A stretch of DNA of 64,000 nucleotides. It comes from Sphagnum magellanicum (taxonomy: Eukaryota; Streptophyta; Sphagnopsida; Sphagnales; Sphagnaceae). Below, in pieces: positions 4,601 to 63,836 of the stretch. Position 1 is the stretch's first letter; each line of letters begins with the position of its first letter. A program made the position numbers and the translations under genes. Under the pieces are notes generated by a model. That model was not told the DNA's origin. It saw nothing but the letters and a program-made list of their open reading frames with translations, and made no database searches. The DNA lies in the NCBI GenBank assembly GCA_021904315.1, contig CM038914.1, forward strand, positions 7,812,001 to 7,876,000. Direction: 5' to 3'.

Positions 4601-5690
4601 TAACCTAACAAATTTTCAATGTTGGCTCCAAGTTAATGCACAAAAACTTTGCTTGACAACGTTTGTTAATAAACCCTACCAATATGCACATGAATGCAAG
4701 TTGGGAACTATTGATATTTTTCCCCAATCTTATGATTGTTGGCACTTGCCCTTCAAGCCAACATGTTCAAATGCACTATGAAATCATGTTGTTGGAACCC
4801 CAAGGATGCCAAATGAATCTACTTATAAAACTAATGTGCAAATTAGATAGTTTAGTTGTTTTGAGGATCACCAACATTTTAAATTTACTTTAAGGTTTTT
4901 GTCATTTGCACAATACAAGTTTCAAGTTTAGTCAAGGATGAATGACCTTTTTTACATGTTCATTTATGAAAAGCAAGTTTCAAAAATCAACTTGAACATT
5001 TCAAACACTCATAGATTTTGGAGTGTACTATCATAATTGATATATAATTTATATAAGAATTTCCATATGACAAGGTTTTTGATATATGGCAAGTGGCAAA
5101 GAAGCACAACATTAAAACTTTGATGGTAATCCAAAGTTACATGTAACTTAGTTGTCATTGTTTCTAATGAATGATCTACATTGAAAGTACTCCATGACAA
5201 AAACTTGAATAGGATACAAAGACTACGATAGAAAATTAGAATAAAATTAAAGCAAGTGAATATATAAACCAAATGAGATTTAACAACACACAATGTTCTA
5301 CATATGATATGAAACTAAGAAATAATTTCATTACAAGAACAAGCTTACATATATTCACATTGTAATAAATCCAATCCTAAAAAATAGTGAACAAATTTGG
5401 AAGTGCACAATGATGATCTAATGTTACTTACTACACAATTGTGAACTTAATATGTTAATATCCTTATCTACTTCAATTCCATATAAGATTAGCCAACTTC
5501 AATTCAATAACAATCTATTGATTGATTTTTGTAGTAAGATGTCATTGGTGCACTGCAGTTATAACTTCAATATCTTGATGATGATTTACTAGCCATGGAT
5601 GTTGAAGTCCTTTCACATGTTTGTTTCACCCCCCCATTGTGACTAAGACTATAAAATCATTTCAACATGACTAACTAATTTTGTTCATTT
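1700..5690. other. AT-rich intergenic DNA, no gene seen
   Basis: This stretch holds short open frames (the longest at 2203-2688, 161 codons, and 4515-4893) that show no recognisable domain, no compositional shift and no plausible splice context, so no gene is called. It contains a (TA)n microsatellite at about 4581-4602. Nothing else is recognisable. Confidence 0.5.
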
Positions 5691-6514
5691 TTAATAAACC
5701 AAAATTTAGAATATTAGATTTATTAAGTTCAATTTTTTTAATAAAAATTTGCTAATGACACATGAACCAATATGGCAAATCCATGAGGAAATCATAGTGA
5801 TAGTCTCATGATTAGATTTAATCATAAGAAAATGACAAGGATGGTGACATGTCACCATGTACATGACTATTGTGACTTAAACATGTTACAAGTCGTGTCA
5901 AATCTTATGTGCCACTGTGATTGTAATGCTTTACATATTTTTGGTCTTATATGGCATAATGTATATAGTGCCCTTAAATTTTTTAATTTTTTAATATAAT
6001 TATGAATTTTTAAAAATTACAAAAAATTATAATGAACTTGTAATAATTATGTACTTCGCATGTTAAATGAATTAATTCATTATGAAGTTATATTTATTCT
6101 ATTATGATTAAAGAAAATACATTGGAAATTTTGAAATATTTTTTAAAAAATCAATGCCATGTCTTTAAATTTAAAATAAAACCATTGCTAAATTAAATGT
6201 AATTATGAAAGTATACATATGTGAAATTGGTGTAATTTTTTATTATGATCGAATTTAAGTATTAATTTATCAAATTATCAATTAACAAGTTATATGAATT
6301 AAATTAAATTCTGAAAATTTAAAAATAAGATGTAATTTAAATTATTAATTTTTTTAATTATATAACCCAATTTGAGATTCAAAAAATTGATATGTTTGAA
6401 TTTTTTAAATGAATATTGAAATTATTATAATGTCTTTACATTACATTATTAAATTTTTACAAAAACCAATGTAATTATGAAAATATTTTTAAAATAAATT
6501 AAATTATGAAATAA

Positions 6515-21430: not shown

Positions 21431-21440
21431 TAATAACTGT

Positions 21441-21800
21441 CACAGAAAACAAAACCCATCAAAAAAAAAAAAAAAAAAAAGGTCCGGGCAGTTTAATTGA
21501 CATAGAAAACAAAACCCATCAAAAAAAACAAAGGTCCGGGCAGTTTAACTGACACAAAAAACAAAACCCATCAAAAAAAAAAAAAACAAAGGTCCGAGCA
21601 GTTTAATTGACACAGAAAAGAAAACCCATCAAAAAAAAAAAAAAAAAAAAACAAACAAAGGTCCGGGCAGTTTAACTGACACAGAAAACAAAACCCATCA
21701 AAAAAAAAAAAAACAAAGGTCTGAACAGTTTAACTGACACAGAAAACAAAACCCATCAAAAAAACAAACAAACAAACAAACAAACAAAGGTCTGGGTAGT
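21441..21800 (+). repeat. Minisatellite, six units of 52-69 bp
   Basis: Units begin at 21441, 21501, 21553, 21611, 21680 and 21738. Each has ACAGAAAACAAAACCCATC, a variable poly-A/(CAAA)n spacer, then GGTCCGGGCAGTTTAACTGA. Length variation sits in the A-run. The array ends in a partial GGTCTGGGTAGTG followed by (GACA)n and CTTTAATATATAAGAT, which may be the tail of the parent retroposon. Confidence 0.85.
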
Positions 21801-40775: not shown

Positions 40776-41040
40776 TGCTCATATTCACAACAATATATCT
40801 AATATTTTACCGTGTGAATTTTGCAAATGAACACATGAACTCATTGAGTGTTTTATTAGTGAAGAAATACTCACTAAGGATACCTAAAAACATTTATTAA
40901 ATATGTTGTTTGAATTAATTCCATATTGTTAGCAGACCACCTTATGCTTAATCATATTCTTAAGTTACAAATGAACACATGCAATTTGGAACTTTATAAT
41001 TATATATTGGGTAATTTGGTAATGTAGTGATTTTGCATAC

Positions 41041-41690
41041 TTGCAAATGCGCACTTGCAACTTGTAAAGTTGTAATTATTAATTTGCACTTTCTAGATTT
41101 TGTAAATTTACAAACTTACACGAATTTGCAAATGCACATTTGCAATTTGTTAAGTTGTAAATTTGTAATTATTAATTTGTAATTTCTAGATTTTGTAATT
41201 TTATAAACTTGCAAACTTGTGAACTTGCAATTGTGCATTTGCAATTTGTAAAGTTGTAAAATTGTGACTATTAATTTGAATTTTTTTTGATATTTTAGTT
41301 TTGTAAATTTGCAAACTTGCAAATATGCACTTGCAATTTGTTCAGTTGAAAATTTATAATTTATAATTTGTAATTTGTAGGTTTTGTAAATTTGCAAACT
41401 TGCATACTTGCAAATGCACACTTGCAATTTGTAAATCTGTAATTATTAATTTATAATTTCTAAATTTTTTAATTTTATAAAATTGCAAACATGCACACTT
41501 GCAATTTGTTAAGTTGTAAATTGTAATTAATAATTTGCAATTTCTAGATTTTAAATTTTTTAAAATTTTTAAATTTGCAAACTTGTGAACTTGCAAATGC
41601 ACACTTGCAATTTGTAATTATTAATTTGTAATTTCTAAAGTTTTTAATTTTGTAATTTGCAAACTTGTAAACTTGCATACTTGCAAACTT
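41041..41690 (+). repeat. Tandem array, ~7 degenerate units of 75-108 bp
   Basis: Each unit contains GCAAATGCACACTTGCAATT, a TTGTAAAGTTGTAATTATTAA-like stretch, TTTCTAGATTTTGTAA and an AAACTTGCAAACTTG run. Unit starts fall near 41046, 41129, 41226, 41318, 41411, 41483 and 41595. Open frames on the minus strand here are by-products of the repeat. Confidence 0.8.
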
Positions 41691-46467: not shown

Positions 46468-46530
46468 AAAAGGTTAAGAGAAAAATATTTATGAGAGCAG
46501 CGAGCAAAAAGAATTCCAGTAGTGCGAAAT

Positions 46531-46685
46531 ATGGGAAATTCATATGGCCTCAAGGGAAATGGAGTTGATCTTTCACAAGGGCCACCAAAAAGAAAGAGAG
46601 ATGTTGTGCGGATCCCTGCTGTGATTGAGACACCTTTGGTCCCTGCTGAAAATGCTCCTTCAAGCTCTGGATGTCACAGCGATGT
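46531..46685 (+). CDS. Candidate first exon of the HNL gene
   Basis: ATG at 46531 opens MGNSYGLKGNGVDLSQ, a basic PPKRKRD cluster, then a Ser/Pro-rich stretch (ENAPSSSGCHSDV). Coding-like composition stops near 46690, where a T-rich, intron-like sequence begins although the frame stays open to 46884. An N-terminal leader of this kind is needed, because the first hydrolase exon (from 47652) has no ATG start. The donor site is not strong (GAT|GTGGTG is one option), so the end is approximate and the link to the HNL gene is inferred. Confidence 0.3.
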
Positions 46686-46875
46686 GGTGCTTCTTCTTGA
46701 TCTTATCATGACCTTTCTTTGCACTGTTTTTTCTTGGGCTTTCTCAAGTTACATGTTGAAGTTTCATTTTTCTTTACTTTTAAAAATTTTGTTTGGGTGT
46801 CGACAATTTTTCTTGACCCTTACAACCATGATAGCTTATTGTGCTCACAAAGTATCAGGAGAAGGAGGTCTAGTT

Positions 46876-46930
46876 CAGATTTGAACTCCCAACCAGCAGC
46901 TTCACAAGCATACCCTTTAGCCACTAGGGT
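46876..46930 (-). repeat. tRNA-like SINE head
   Basis: On the minus strand TGGCTAAAGGG (A box) is followed about 22 bases later by GGGAGTTCAAATC (B box). It lies in the presumed first intron of the HNL gene. A full tRNA fold with paired acceptor arms is not evident, so a tRNA-derived SINE or relic is more likely than a working tRNA gene. Confidence 0.35.
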
Positions 46931-47651
46931 ACTTGAATGTCTTGAATCATTTACAAGCTTCCTTGTCATACATTTTCACTTTGCCTACTTCCTAGTTTGT
47001 TTGTTTAAATAAAAACAATATGAAATGATGTTTAAAATAGTACGAAATGGAGTCCTTGTTATAGCCTCTTACAATAGGCCAGCAACTCAATTGCTATAAC
47101 AAGTAGAATTGGTGAAAGGGAAATTTGTCAACTGGCATTGACTAAGAATATATTGAACTTGTAAGAATTGGAACTGTCATTATAGATTATGAGTTAAGTT
47201 CAATGTGTAGTCTTAATCCAGCAACCTAAAGCAAATTATTAAAATGCTCTTGGAGATTCTTATTGGGTTCGTGTCCCAGTTCCTTAAGGAGTTGGAGGCC
47301 TTAGTGGCCCAAATGTCGGGGAAAATGTCATGAAATACAAATGAACCAAACTAGATGGGCTAAGCTAATCAACCCAAACTTGAAGGAATCCAATTCTTAG
47401 CATTAACCTTTATTGATTTGCATACATTCCACCTACTGTGTAACAATATTTAGTTAATTGAACTATTTTTTGAAACTTTGAGGTCTATGACACACATGAA
47501 TGATCTTCATTTGTTAGTCATGCAAGATAAATTTGGTATTCTCCAATTCATCTATTATTGTCTTCTTGTTAAACTTAATATTTTCAATTAATTATTGCCT
47601 TTATCTAACTACTATAATTTGTATATTGCAGTTCTTTTATTTCATGAATAG

Positions 47652-50600
47652 TCAAATAATTTCAAGAGGCATTTGAAGAATTGTGTTGACTCATTTTCAT
47701 TTTCTTTGCAAAAATATCTAGTGCATGATTTAAATCCCACTTGCAATTCCAATAATCCAAACTTGACCATTGTTTTTTTTCATGGGATTGCTTTTGGCAC
47801 AAATGATGAATGGAAGGAAACATGGACAACATGCCCCCCCAACAATAGAGAAGAAAACATATGTTGGCCAGAAAAGTGGCTACCCGAAGACTTGAACAAC
47901 AATGTTCGAATTTTATCATTGTCCTATGATTCTAACATTGTGGCAAGTGTTCACAATGATGTGACTGAAATTGGCAAAAACCTCATTCAAAGTTTGGTTA
48001 CAAATTCAAGGTGTGACAATCTTCTTTATTTATGGACATTAATTACTACTCCTTTTATACATTAAAGATAATTGTTTATAGCTTTAGAATTTTTTAAATG
48101 TTTTGCACGAGTTAATTGTTCATGTGTGCTACTATTGTGATACACACCAACAAGTTGCAATTTATTTGAATCGTTAGATTCATGTAGGAGAACGTAAAAT
48201 GGGGCTAAAATGCAAATGTTCTTGTTTGATGATAATAGCAAAGTCTATGTTCATATTATAAGTTCATGGTACAACTAGTTTGGTTTTGATGGCAATTTTT
48301 AGTTCACATTTTTTGAAGCTTTATCTTTGGTAATGCAATTGAATTGAATGAATACATCTGTAGAAAATATGCATCCATTTCATTGCAAAAAAATTATTTT
48401 TAAAAAAGGGTTTTTTTTAAAATAAAAATTTCTTTTTATTTCAACGATATTTCCAAAGTAACACACAGAAGATGAGTTCTAGATTAACAGAAGAATGTAA
48501 ACACCTACATACTTTTACATAATAATAGTTTTACCAAAACATGATTATCACATTTTTTAGGTAGATTAGTGGAGTTGATAAATGAAAAATGACAAATGAC
48601 GAACAAATCAATTATGAATTTATGGCTTAGGTCATGTGTGGATTGCAAAATTGCCCCAAATATAATAGGATAAATTTGTACATGCTAATGCAATGTTGAT
48701 AACAAAATTTTGGTGCATTGTTAAATATTTTGTAGTTATCAATCCCTTTGGGATGGACCGGTGGCATTAGTTGCTTATAGTTTTGGAGGTTTGGTACTCA
48801 AAAGCTTGGTGGTTGAAGCTTGGAAACATGAACATCAAAGGCTAAGAAATGATTTGGATGATGAAATACACAAATGTTGTAAGAAATTTTTGAACAATGT
48901 TAAAGGTGTAATATTTTATAGTGTACCACATGCTGGTGGTACCCAATCTTTATCAAATTATTTCATTTGGCAACATCAACAAATCAACACAGTGAACAAG
49001 TATGCAACCCAATCTGGTTTTTTGAAAAATTTAGAATCTTTCAACCCACAATTGGAGCACCTTTCAACGGATTTTAAAAATGTCGCTCGTGAAAACCTCA
49101 ACATTTATGCATTTGGGGAAGGATTACCACTTGACCAGAATTGGGTAAGATTTTCATTTCACCGCATTGAAAGTTATCCAACTTGGTTCAATAGTTAAAC
49201 ATTTTTTGTATTGTCAAAACTTGTTTGGGACCAAGGAGTCAATACTTCTAAATATATTAATGTGGTGAATGGGTCATGTGTTTAATGAACTTTGTTTCAT
49301 GAATTACTATTGATGGAAAGGAAATTTGATTGATTTTGAACATTAGGAAATATGTTTTAAATTTTCCCTTCATGAAATCAATTCCACATAAATATTTATA
49401 AGGAAAATCATAACATCATTAAAACATGTAAGATTAATGAGATTAAAAACCAATAACTTTGTGATGTATTTATATAATTTGCTTGCCAAAAGGTTGAAGG
49501 AAATTATTTTTACACAAAATATTTCATTCTGATTCAAACATCATAAGTTATAAAACTTAGTTTCCACCACCATTTGGAATTAATATATTACTTATAAGTT
49601 AAAGCATAAGTGAACAAACAAGTCACTGAGTTCCATTAACTTAATCTTTTGCAAATGCAGGGAATTTTAGTGCCATATGCCTCAGCTATTCAATTGTCAA
49701 ACAACAACCATTACAAAATTGAGGATGCTAATCACTTGACAATTTGCAAGCCACCAAACAAAGATCATCCAAGTTATTCTATATTGTTAAAATGTTTGAA
49801 AATATGTATGGAGGTAAAAACTTCAAATCTAAATCATATGATTTCATATATGTTCATGTAATTTGATACACATTAGGTCATAGCACACTTGATGTGTGTC
49901 GCATACGCAATGTTAGATATATTGGTTATCAAATAAGAAAAATAACATATAAATGACCTATATTTTGTGAATTTTGACAGAAAAATATACTACTTCCACG
50001 TTTGCCATATCATGAGGTGGCATGGATTGACAAAGCAAAAGACATAAACATCTTGTTACAAAAGGAATCTATTGTTGGTTTGGTTGGAATGGGTGGGATT
50101 GGGAAAACCACTTTGTGCAGAAAATTCTATCATTTGTTCCACAACCAATATGACAAATCTAGTTTTTTGGAGGATGTGAAATCAAAGGACAATATCAACG
50201 ATGCCATAAAACAACTCCTACATGATTTGTGTGGGATATGCAAGGATAAAAATGTGAATCAAGATGACCTAGATCGAATTAGGCAGTGTATGATATCAGA
50301 AAAAGTGTTAGTGGTGGTGGATGATGTTGGTAAAACGGAGAACCTTACATCCTTGCAACTTCTCATTGATACCAAGAATGCAACTCCTAAAAGCAAAGTA
50401 CTTGTGAATTGTCGAAATTGGCAAATTTTGAAATCTCATGTAAGTGAAGATGGAAAAGTGGTCATGAAATCTTTGGAAGAAGAACAAGCAAGGGAACTAT
50501 TTATGTTCCATGCATTTGGTAATGCAAATCATGTTCCAACAAAGGATTTCAAAGATATATGTATGAAGATTATAAAAGCTTGTGGGGGGCTCCCTTTAAG

Positions 50601-52530
50601 TCTTAAAGTATTGGGTTCTTTTTTGTGTAATACTAAAGAATTAGAAATTTGGGAAGGTGCATTGAGAAAATTGAAAAGTGGGCAAAATCTCACGGGGGGC
50701 AATGATAATGAAAAGCTTTGGAACGTATTGAAGATTTCTTATGACCACTTGGATAAGCAACATCAAAACATGTTTTTGGATATTGCTTGTTTTTTGGGTG
50801 GTTTGAAAATAAGTACAATTTGTCGAGTGTGGAGTGGAGATTATTTAAACCAAAAGTTTATATTACAAAATTTACAACATAGATCTTTGGTCCAATGGGC
50901 AGAAGATGGAATCTTGTGCATACATGAACAATTACGAGACATGGGTCAAAATATTACAATGGAACTTCCAATTATGAATCGATTTATATGGAAATCAAAT
51001 GAATCAAATTTCCTTTTACAAAAGGATGAGGTTGTCACCATACTATTTCAATCCTATAATTTTATTTTGATTTCCTATGAATTTTGTCTAGAACTAAATG
51101 TTTTAATTCTGAGTCATAATTTTACAAATACATGTTTTTCTAATAAAAATTGGCATTAAGATGAAATGTTTTTTTATATTGATAATCCTTTTTGTTTTCA
51201 TTTCATGTGACAGGTGGTGGAAAATTTAGAAGGCATCTCATTGAAAAAATGTGTCAATTTCCCTACATTGTCCCAAATTAGCTCAAAGGGTTTTCGAAAC
51301 CTTAGGTTAGTTGACCTAACAAAAGCTTCACCAACTATAGTGGAAAATTGCATCCAAGGGCGAAATTTGAATAACATTAAATGGTTGCGCCTCAAAAAAT
51401 GCATGATTCGAAAGTTGCCAAGTAATTTGTTTTATTGTTTACAATTACAAGTATTTGATTTGGCACAATGCACGTTTTTGGAAGAAATACCTTCATCTAT
51501 TGGCCGATTGAAAACACTCCAAAAATTTGATTTAACACAGTGTGGGAGCTTGCAAAAATTGCCTACATCTATTGGCCAATTGAATGCACTCCAAGAACTT
51601 ATTTTGTGCAAATGTTTCAAGTTGAAAGAACTACCTTCATCTATTGGTCAATTGAATGCACTCCAAAAACTTGATTTGTCAAGGTGTTACAAGTTGAAAG
51701 AACTACCTTCATCTATTGGCCAATTGAATGCACTCCAAAAGCTTGATTTTGATGGGTGTTCCGAGTTGAAAGAACTACCTTCATCTATTGGCCAATTGAA
51801 TGCACTCCAAGAGCTTGATTTGGATGGGTGTTCTGAGTTGAAAGAATTACCATCATCTATTGGCCAATTGAATGCACTCCAAGAGCTTGGTTTGTCATGG
51901 TGTTTCAAGTTGAAAGAACTACCTTCATCTATTGGTCAATTGAATGCACTCCAAGAGCTTGATTTGACATGTTGCTACGAGTTGAAAGAACTACCTTCAT
52001 CTATTGGCCAATTGAATGCACTCCAAAAGCTTGATTTGGATGGGTGTTCCGAGTTGAAAGAACTACCTTCATCTATTGGCCAATTGAATGCACTCCGAGA
52101 ACTTGATTTGAATGGGTGTTGCAACTTGAAAGAACTACCTTCATCTATTGGCCAATTGAATGCACTCCAAAAGCTTGATTTGGATGGGTGTTCCGAGTTG
52201 AAAGAACTACCTTCATCTATTGGCCAATTGAATGCACTCCAAGAGCTTGTTTTGTCATGGTGTTTCAAGTTGAAAAAACTACCTTCATCTATTGGCCAAT
52301 TGAATACACTCCAAAAGCTTGATTTGACATGTTGTTTCGAGTTGAAAGGACTACCTTCATCTATTGGCCAATTGAATGCACTCCAAGAGTTTGATTTGAC
52401 ATGTTGTTCCGAGTTGAAAGGACTACCTTCATCTATTGGCCAATTGAATGCACTCCAAGAGCTTGATTTGACATGTTGTTCCGAGTTGAAAGGACTACCT
52501 TCATCTATTGGCCAATTGAATGCACTATAA
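47652..52530 (+). CDS. Alpha/beta-hydrolase-NB-ARC-LRR immune receptor (HNL)
   Basis: Five exons join in one frame: 47652-48010, 48736-49144, 49661-49813, 49981-51030 and 51214-52530 (about 1,095 codons; the first intron splits a codon, the others lie between codons). Exons 1-3 are a SERAC1/DUF676-like hydrolase: TIVFFHG near the oxyanion site, CWPEKWLP, VRILSLSYD, the nucleophile Ser in VAYSFGG (residue ~135, counting from 47652), GVIFYSVPHAGG, and the likely catalytic His in DANHLTICKP. Exon 4 is NB-ARC: P-loop GMGGIGKTT (~343-351), kinase-2 VLVVVDDV (~416-423), GGLPLS (~509), FLDIACF, and IHE (~621) where MHD is usual. Exon 5 holds degenerate LRRs, then 14 near-identical 24-residue LRRs and part of a fifteenth. 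There is no TIR or coiled-coil head. Hydrolase-NBS-LRR proteins are a liverwort-described class of intracellular immune receptor; ATP/ADP exchange at NB-ARC should switch the protein, LRRs sensing and the hydrolase signalling or being guarded. Start uncertain: in-frame TAG at 47649 forces an upstream exon, perhaps at 46531. The donor of exon 4 (GAG|GTTGTC) is weak. Introns 1 and 2 (725 and 516 bases) hold nothing recognisable. Confidence 0.85.
51487..52527 (+). repeat. 72-bp tandem LRR-coding array
   Basis: Fourteen full 72-base units and one partial unit each encode a 24-residue LRR of the pattern LPSSIGQLNALQELDL followed by about eight variable residues (such as DGCSELKE). The first half of each unit is nearly invariant in DNA; variation concentrates around the two residues after LDL and the next four, the part that would face the ligand. 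Such homogeneity suggests recent unequal crossing-over or gene conversion. Minus-strand frames over this array (51687-52268) are its shadow. Confidence 0.95.
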
Positions 52531-52623
52531 TACTTGTCACTTGGCCTTTTCTTTGAGGAGGGGGAAGATACCCAACTCTGGGGATTTTTTAATGCAGATT
52601 ATTCATTTGATTTAGATGATTGA
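52531..52623 (+). other. Open in-frame tail after the HNL stop codon
   Basis: After the TAA at 52528-52530 the same frame stays open for 30 codons (YLSLGLFFEEGEDTQLWG..., ending acidic FDLDD) to TGA at 52621. In the upstream LRR units the codon at the TAA position is CAA (CGA in one). The simplest reading is that the ancestral protein ran through to 52623 and a C-to-T change shortened it by about 31 residues. Confidence 0.6.
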
Positions 52624-63508: not shown

Positions 63509-63836
63509 GTAACATGCCCATAATCTCACAACCCCTTGTTACAAGGTCTTTGAAACATGGCCACAATTTTGGACCTCCTTGTTACAAGGGCTTTGAAACA
63601 TGGCCATAGTTTCAAAACCCCTTGTTACAAGGACTTTGAAACATGCCCCGGATTCAGAACTCCTTGTTAAATGGACTTTGAAACATGGTCATAATTTCAA
63701 AACCCCTTGTTACAAGGACTTTGGGACATGCCCAAGATTCAAAACTCCTTGTTACATGGACTTTGAAACATGGCCATAATTTCAAAACTCCTTAGTACAA
63801 GGACTTTGAAACGTGCCCATCATTTCATAACTTTAT
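63509..63836 (+). repeat. 43-bp tandem array
   Basis: Seven units of 42-43 bases, with GAAACATG or variants at 63552, 63595, 63638, 63680, 63723, 63765 and 63808. Each unit also contains CCTTGTTACAAGG, an odd-centred palindrome, and a CATAATTTCAAAAC-like spacer; units alternate between CATAATTTCAAAAC and CNNGATTCANAAC types, hinting at an underlying ~86-base higher-order unit. Confidence 0.85.

Follow-up and report, generated by a model that had tools for sequence, protein, structure and literature searches.

The 64,000-base stretch of the Sphagnum magellanicum genome analysed here (contig CM038914.1, positions 7,812,001 to 7,876,000; hereafter the window, 31% GC) carries on its plus strand, at 47652..52530, a gene whose predicted product joins an alpha/beta-hydrolase to the NB-ARC switch and leucine-rich repeats (LRR) of a nucleotide-binding immune receptor (NLR). 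The domain architecture, read from a splice model, and the class of the gene are near certain: it is a further member of the known bryophyte-type hydrolase-headed NLRs, called HNL or Hyd-NLR. The best explanation of the gene, and one that we regard as likely, is that its head would act as a lipase-like esterase upon activation of the receptor. Our alignment names three residues to mutate, Ser135, Glu248 and His281, with Glu248 the likely acid. It also links the head to bacterial hydrolases, whose biochemistry may prove more tractable; some of these belong to proteins matched by PADLOC models of anti-phage systems, known or candidate. As a receptor, this copy is unremarkable within the HNL class.

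Gene structure and domain content

Five plus-strand exons splice together into an uninterrupted reading frame of 1,095 codons, and their introns are of the GT-AG type with phases 2, 0, 0 and 0. The gene is laid out as follows.

47652..48010, plus: exon 1, residues 1-119 and two bases of the next codon; open frame, start of the hydrolase
47781-47786, plus: putative oxyanion-hole HG (residues 44-45), in exon 1
48011..48735, plus: intron 1, phase 2, GT-AG; donor ranked 1 of 281
48736..49144, plus: exon 2, middle of the hydrolase, with the predicted nucleophile, the SVPHAGG motif and the predicted acid
48779-48781, plus: predicted nucleophile Ser135, motif AYSFGG, in exon 2
49118-49120, plus: predicted acid Glu248, motif FGEG, in exon 2
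49145..49660, plus: intron 2, phase 0, GT-AG, within the hydrolase domain; donor ranked 3 of 281
49661..49813, plus: exon 3, end of the hydrolase, carrying His281
49733-49735, plus: His281, motif DANHLTICKP, in exon 3
49814..49980, plus: intron 3, phase 0, 167 bases, at the hydrolase/NB-ARC boundary; donor ranked 11 of 281
49981..51030, plus: exon 4, NB-ARC and winged helix, with kinase-2 (VLVVVDDV), GLPL and RNBS-D (FLDIACF) motifs
from 50086, plus: P-loop GMGGIGKTT, in exon 4
50920-50928, plus: MHD position, reading IHE (Ile-His-Glu), in exon 4
51031..51213, plus: intron 4, phase 0, GT-AG, at the NB-ARC/LRR boundary, frame kept; weak donor GAG/GTTGTC, ranked 92 of 281
51214..52530, plus: exon 5, LRR domain, with TAA at 52528-52530
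51478..52526, plus: LRR tandem array of a 72-nt (24-residue) unit, 14.6 copies with 88% matches (Tandem Repeats Finder)
52531..52623, plus: in-frame open stretch past the TAA, 30 codons and then TGA, possibly a former C-terminus

At the junction of exons 1 and 2, one of the four donor/acceptor pairs enumerated is free of stops; the three other junctions were placed by eye from lists of GT and AG sites. The donor ranks refer to 281 GT sites scored with a plant donor matrix that was entered by hand.

In Pfam searches, the spliced protein reads alpha/beta-hydrolase, NB-ARC, winged helix and LRR, in that order. The DUF676 esterase model (E = 1.5e-4; 24.2 bits against a cut-off of 20.3, residues 1-337), NB-ARC (1.3e-32), WHD_ROQ1 (3.6e-9) and LRR_14 (4e-57) all exceed their curated cut-offs. 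A profile of 86 hydrolases, built from bacterial relatives alone, matches the spliced protein at E = 1.1e-25 (database size set to 177,635), against 7.2 at best for 200 shuffled versions of the head. The domain matches are therefore not due to chance. Taken singly, exons 1 to 3 match consecutive segments of this profile: positions 18-91 for exon 1 (E 1e-6), 100-204 for exon 2 (E 1.8e-9) and, weakly, 232-259 for exon 3 (E 0.074).

An earlier note on this DNA had described a serine hydrolase spliced in frame to a full NB-ARC and LRR across five exons. The motifs that it quoted (VFFHG, VAYSFGG, SVPHAGG and DANHLTICKP) are all found, in the order and on the strand claimed, and the hidden Markov model check that it proposed for the hydrolase and NB-ARC domains has turned out positive. 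Frame, coordinates and domains stand, but the gene is less complete than was described: a start codon is absent, leaving the 5' end of the five-exon model incomplete, and the LRR breaks off partway through a repeat.

Membership in the HNL class

As excerpts of Xue et al. (2012, PMC3352924) describe them, HNL genes are defined by the order hydrolase-NBS-LRR and by three conserved introns, which lie inside the hydrolase, between hydrolase and NBS, and behind the NBS and are all of phase 0; TNL genes have a phase-2 intron between TIR and NBS. The window gene has an N-terminal alpha/beta-hydrolase, seen by DUF676 and by the bacterial profile, a central NB-ARC and a C-terminal LRR, and its introns 2, 3 and 4 agree with the published ones in domain and phase, which is the level at which positions were compared. 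Since it has both the architecture that defines HNL and the phase-0 introns specific to that class, we assign the gene to HNL, as the earlier note had done. Set against the published description of the class, it differs in an extra phase-2 intron, intron 1, early in the hydrolase, and it has a uniform LRR array of 14.6 copies. The earlier note had the class defined in liverworts; it is a known class, but some mosses share it too (Chia et al. 2024, PMC11218826, and the review PMC10952240, both as excerpted), so that membership does not mark a liverwort, whereas the excerpted text of a fern survey (PMC12512272) reports that Hyd-NLR was not found.

No TIR domain occurs among 25 of the 28 Pfam families matched by the protein, the other three standing at E 0.22 to 1. 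This agrees with the proposal that a hydrolase occupies the place of the usual TIR or coiled-coil head. Unlike TNL receptors such as Roq1 and RPP1, the window gene has a hydrolase head and a phase-0 intron between head and NBS, and it resembles them in an NB-ARC and winged helix that are nearest to Roq1 among solved chains. The matches of the NB-ARC to solved chains run from Roq1 (4.6e-36) through ADR2 (5.1e-21) and the NADase 7crb (1.6e-20) to the weaker CNL (from 1.9e-17) and NRC chains. On the grouping of HNL, PNL and TNL apart from CNL, the best solved relative is of the TIR type, a comparison of solved chains rather than a tree; it is consistent with the published phylogenies, which as excerpted place most HNL near TNL. 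We take the motifs listed for exon 4 to be the P-loop, kinase-2, GLPL, RNBS-D and MHD motifs of other NB-ARC domains. The MHD motif controls the resting state in other NLRs.

Alpha/beta-hydrolase heads on NLR proteins have also been described in fungi. The likeness of the window head to the fungal SesB-like heads is taken from the published description (PMC9815663), not from sequence; DUF676 and PGAP1 are among the Pfam models that this survey employed.

The hydrolase head

We aligned the window head with 86 of 87 fetched bacterial loci (87 rows; L020, with a frame of just 157 residues, was omitted). Ser135, Glu248, His281 and the HG at 44-45 all fall at conserved columns, with Glu in 85 of the 86 bacterial relatives at the Glu248 column and His281 conserved in 84. 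The catalytic Ser and candidate His that the earlier note considered intact are thus conserved family positions. Its Ser-His-Asp triad needs correction: the acid is more likely Glu248, and the triad is likely Ser135-Glu248-His281 as judged from these columns. An Asp was considered for the acid and rejected. The candidate, in a VVD stretch of some relatives, is not shared by all eight rows of our initial alignments, and the window has Pro-Tyr at that place; the Glu after the strand preceding that stretch is invariant in 8 of 8 rows. In the 87-row alignment Asp is the commonest residue in only two columns above 70%, at T39 and E106 of the window. The window head has no Asp at either, and both precede the nucleophile. 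The predicted fold of one bacterial homologue has a secondary structure that would put the triad and oxyanion residues where they are expected; the alignment for this structure held L026 and 40 of 44 non-redundant hydrolases chosen from 78 (all but L041, L055, L071 and L082).

Searches of solved structures with the head as a single sequence and of PHROGs and phage records gave no match, and in NCBIfam no model exceeded its cut-off.

The LRR array

The variation among repeat units is concentrated at particular places. When the 14 complete units are compared, mean entropy is 1.47 bits at the seven x-positions of LxxLxLxxCxxL and 0.25 at the other 17 positions (Mann-Whitney p = 3.5e-4; the positions were chosen after the units had been seen). 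The ratio of nonsynonymous to synonymous change between units (pN/pS, 12 of the 14 units) is 0.16 at residues 1-6, 1.18 at 7-12, 1.05 at 13-18 and 0.68 at 19-24. This suggests a recent multiplication of the repeat, with an exposed face that tolerates change and a scaffold that is held. Folded alone with AlphaFold, exon 5 gives a regular solenoid with a strand and a helix every 24 residues (mean pLDDT 85.8 for the best of five models and 62.5 for the poorest, with residues 1-29 under 50), which is weak support because such repeats fold easily. An antisense frame of 207 residues across the array (51978-52598) was set aside as a by-product of the repeat.

Proposed mechanism

In the mechanism that we propose, the LRR would keep the receptor inactive while the variable positions of its exposed face sample ligands. 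Ligand binding would lead, by analogy with solved NLRs, to nucleotide exchange in the NB-ARC and to oligomerisation, and from the same analogy we infer that oligomerisation drives the activation of the heads. Judging by family and fold, the clustered heads would then be active esterases, with Ser135 as nucleophile, His281 as base and Glu248 as acid, and would act on a membrane lipid or another ester, resulting in cell death. We regard the head as probably catalytically competent. That the substrate is a lipid is a tentative suggestion, drawn from what the head resembles. Excerpts of Chia et al. (2024, PMC11218826) report that two Marchantia heads caused responses like the hypersensitive response and cell death in Nicotiana benthamiana and that the biochemistry of Hyd-NLR heads was left for later work.

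Alternative readings

Several findings weigh against a working receptor with an enzymatic head. H134Y and L136F, which flank the nucleophile, and T183V, which precedes a conserved PH, break near-invariant positions; the predicted fold is that of a bacterial homologue only about 24% identical to the window head; overall pN/pS between units is 0.97, near 1, and gives no evidence of positive selection. In addition, the copy may be incomplete or non-functional, as the first in-frame Met of the spliced protein is residue 306 and the LRR is stopped in mid-repeat by the TAA.

The broken positions bear most directly on the idea that the head is no enzyme but a pseudo-hydrolase, serving as a scaffold for the binding of a ligand or partner. 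EDS1-type lipase-like proteins are thought to act in this way, as non-enzymatic binders of ligands or partners. Lipid binding or EDS1-like roles are raised for these heads in the excerpted review (PMC10952240). The retention of Ser, Glu, His and the oxyanion HG at aligned positions argues against such a scaffold, which we consider rather unlikely.

A decayed or truncated HNL copy, with its start lost at the 5' end and its LRR cut by a stop so that no working receptor is made, is a less likely reading again. Exons 1 and 2 hold no Met, an in-frame TAG lies directly 5' of exon 1 (47649-47651), and the first ATG met further upstream (47644) is out of frame. The gene must therefore have either a further 5' exon or a broken 5' end. 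Acceptors that keep the frame are available at 47652, 47667, 47669, 47679 and 47722, whereas the acceptor for an exon start at 47632, good by eye, loses the frame and puts a stop in it. Between 44500 and 47640, five ATG-to-donor candidates for a first exon have donor scores above 6, and none is convincing. At the 3' end, the TAA at 52528 sits where other repeat units read through, and the 30 codons that stay open beyond it look weakly coding under a codon model trained on exons of the same gene (p 0.02 if the closing stop codon is excluded, 0.09 if it is included). Decay sits poorly, however, with 1,095 codons free of internal stops in a window of 31% GC, with triad and oxyanion residues retained over three hydrolase exons, and with the NB-ARC motifs present.

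Upstream of the gene, an open frame of 129 codons (46495-46881) contains a coding-like stretch, at 0.45 bits per codon near 46501; it could be an upstream exon or unrelated.

We rejected, as very improbable, two adjoining genes, a hydrolase (exons 1-3) and an NB-ARC-LRR (exons 4-5): exon 3 is open into intron 3 and could close at a stop at 49861 if the intron were retained, but exon 4 is closely preceded by a stop and has no Met ahead of its P-loop (which starts at residue 343, the Mets being at 306, 344 and later), so that exon 4 alone cannot start a normal NB-ARC, the 167-base phase-0 intron is at the place published for HNL, and the alignment of the bacterial profile (residues 30-307, envelope 17-313) stops at residue 307, the last of exon 3 and the hydrolase/NB-ARC junction. 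The absence of a Met together with the upstream stop thus supports a hydrolase/NB-ARC fusion. Retention of intron 3 could give the fused receptor gene a hydrolase-only form ending at 49861.

Kinship with bacterial defence-type hydrolases

Residues 52-303 of the head match the PADLOC model DUF626_VIII at 1.4e-8, and three bacterial relatives match the same model. We take the label, which has a blank description field, to stand for the DUF676 hydrolase of type VIII retrons. Elsewhere among the relatives, PD-Lambda-4_A lies behind the hydrolase in L002, from an Enterobacter plasmid (1.9e-180, PADLOC), and L003 and L007 are annotated as ABC-three component (ABC-3C) system proteins. No PD-Lambda-4 model matched residues 1-657 of the window protein at E 0.1, and no search for partner genes was made. 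The bacterial DUF676-type hydrolases (DUF626_VIII, PD-Lambda-4_A, ABC-3C and cyanobacterial hydrolase-NB-ARC proteins) share with the window protein a homologous head at 17-26% identity, with the same Ser-Glu-His columns, and in several cases this head is N-terminal to a switch or sensor module.

We scanned with Pfam the tails behind the hydrolase in 18 of the 22 genome loci with a tail of at least 250 residues (all but L043, L047, L058 and L066), together with L001 and L006. NB-ARC exceeds its curated cut-off in 4 of the 20 tails (L001, L017, L026, L070) and TIR is present in 3 (L022, L025, L077), with NACHT (L036), nSTAND1 (L053), SIR2 (L013), WD40 (L065), TPR (L084), a metallophosphatase (L014) and DUF4062 (L019) in one each. 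Two tails have sub-threshold matches alone (L008, L060), and four (L006, L042, L067, L086) have nothing at E 0.001. The sample is biased because tails under 250 residues, the commoner ones among the 80 loci, stayed outside the scan.

Some of these relatives have unusual architectures of their own. The Okeania protein L017 (tail from 6736) combines a DUF676-type hydrolase, a trypsin-like protease and an NB-ARC in one chain, with two effector-like domains ahead of one switch. In L022, L025 and L077 the hydrolase is followed by TIR, giving two enzyme heads per bacterial protein, and AAA_35 comes next in L022 and L025. The hydrolase is joined to a SIR2-like domain in L013 (6829-8127, Crocosphaera) and to a calcineurin-like phosphoesterase in L014 (4579-5928, Symploca). 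L004 (about 4848-6221) is an open frame from a part of a Novosphingobium plasmid for which no genes are listed; its hydrolase clusters with the one in the ABC-3C protein L003.

We rejected inheritance of the plant HNL as a whole from a cyanobacterial hydrolase-NB-ARC protein. Joint descent of the pairing is not supported, because the two NB-ARC halves are only distantly similar (the best match of the window NB-ARC to the bacterial hydrolase-linked ones has E 0.0019, against 4.6e-36 for Roq1) and because the hydrolase tree leaves the window head on a very long branch (6.79) with its placement unsure. In that tree the label PD-Lambda-4 was tested for L002 only, and L005, L042, L047 and L058 carry it by similar length. 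Repeated joining of a versatile head to switches fits better than joint descent, although the tree does not test it.

A wider reading, which we offer as possible and short of probable, is that the HNL head belongs to an immune-effector family shared by bacteria and plants. In this family, DUF676 esterases with a Ser-Glu-His triad would have been joined repeatedly to STAND switches (bacterial NB-ARC, NACHT, nSTAND1 and PD-Lambda-4, bryophyte NLRs and probably fungal SesB-like NLRs). After oligomerisation of such a switch, the esterases would hydrolyse lipids or esters of the infected cell itself and so kill or arrest it. A 2023 review (PMC10952240, as excerpted) had already drawn the general parallel among NLR heads of plants, fungi and bacteria, hydrolases included; the sequence link between the HNL head and the bacterial hydrolases was not found in print among openly licensed PubMed Central papers.

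Remainder of the window

The window holds no tRNA, no Rfam match at gathering scores and no further NLR pieces (best tblastn E = 5). Tandem repeat arrays are found at 41033-41687, 21434-21800 and 63511-63832, with periods of about 91/183, 58/127 and 43/85, respectively, and these long arrays sit in DNA otherwise without recognised genes.

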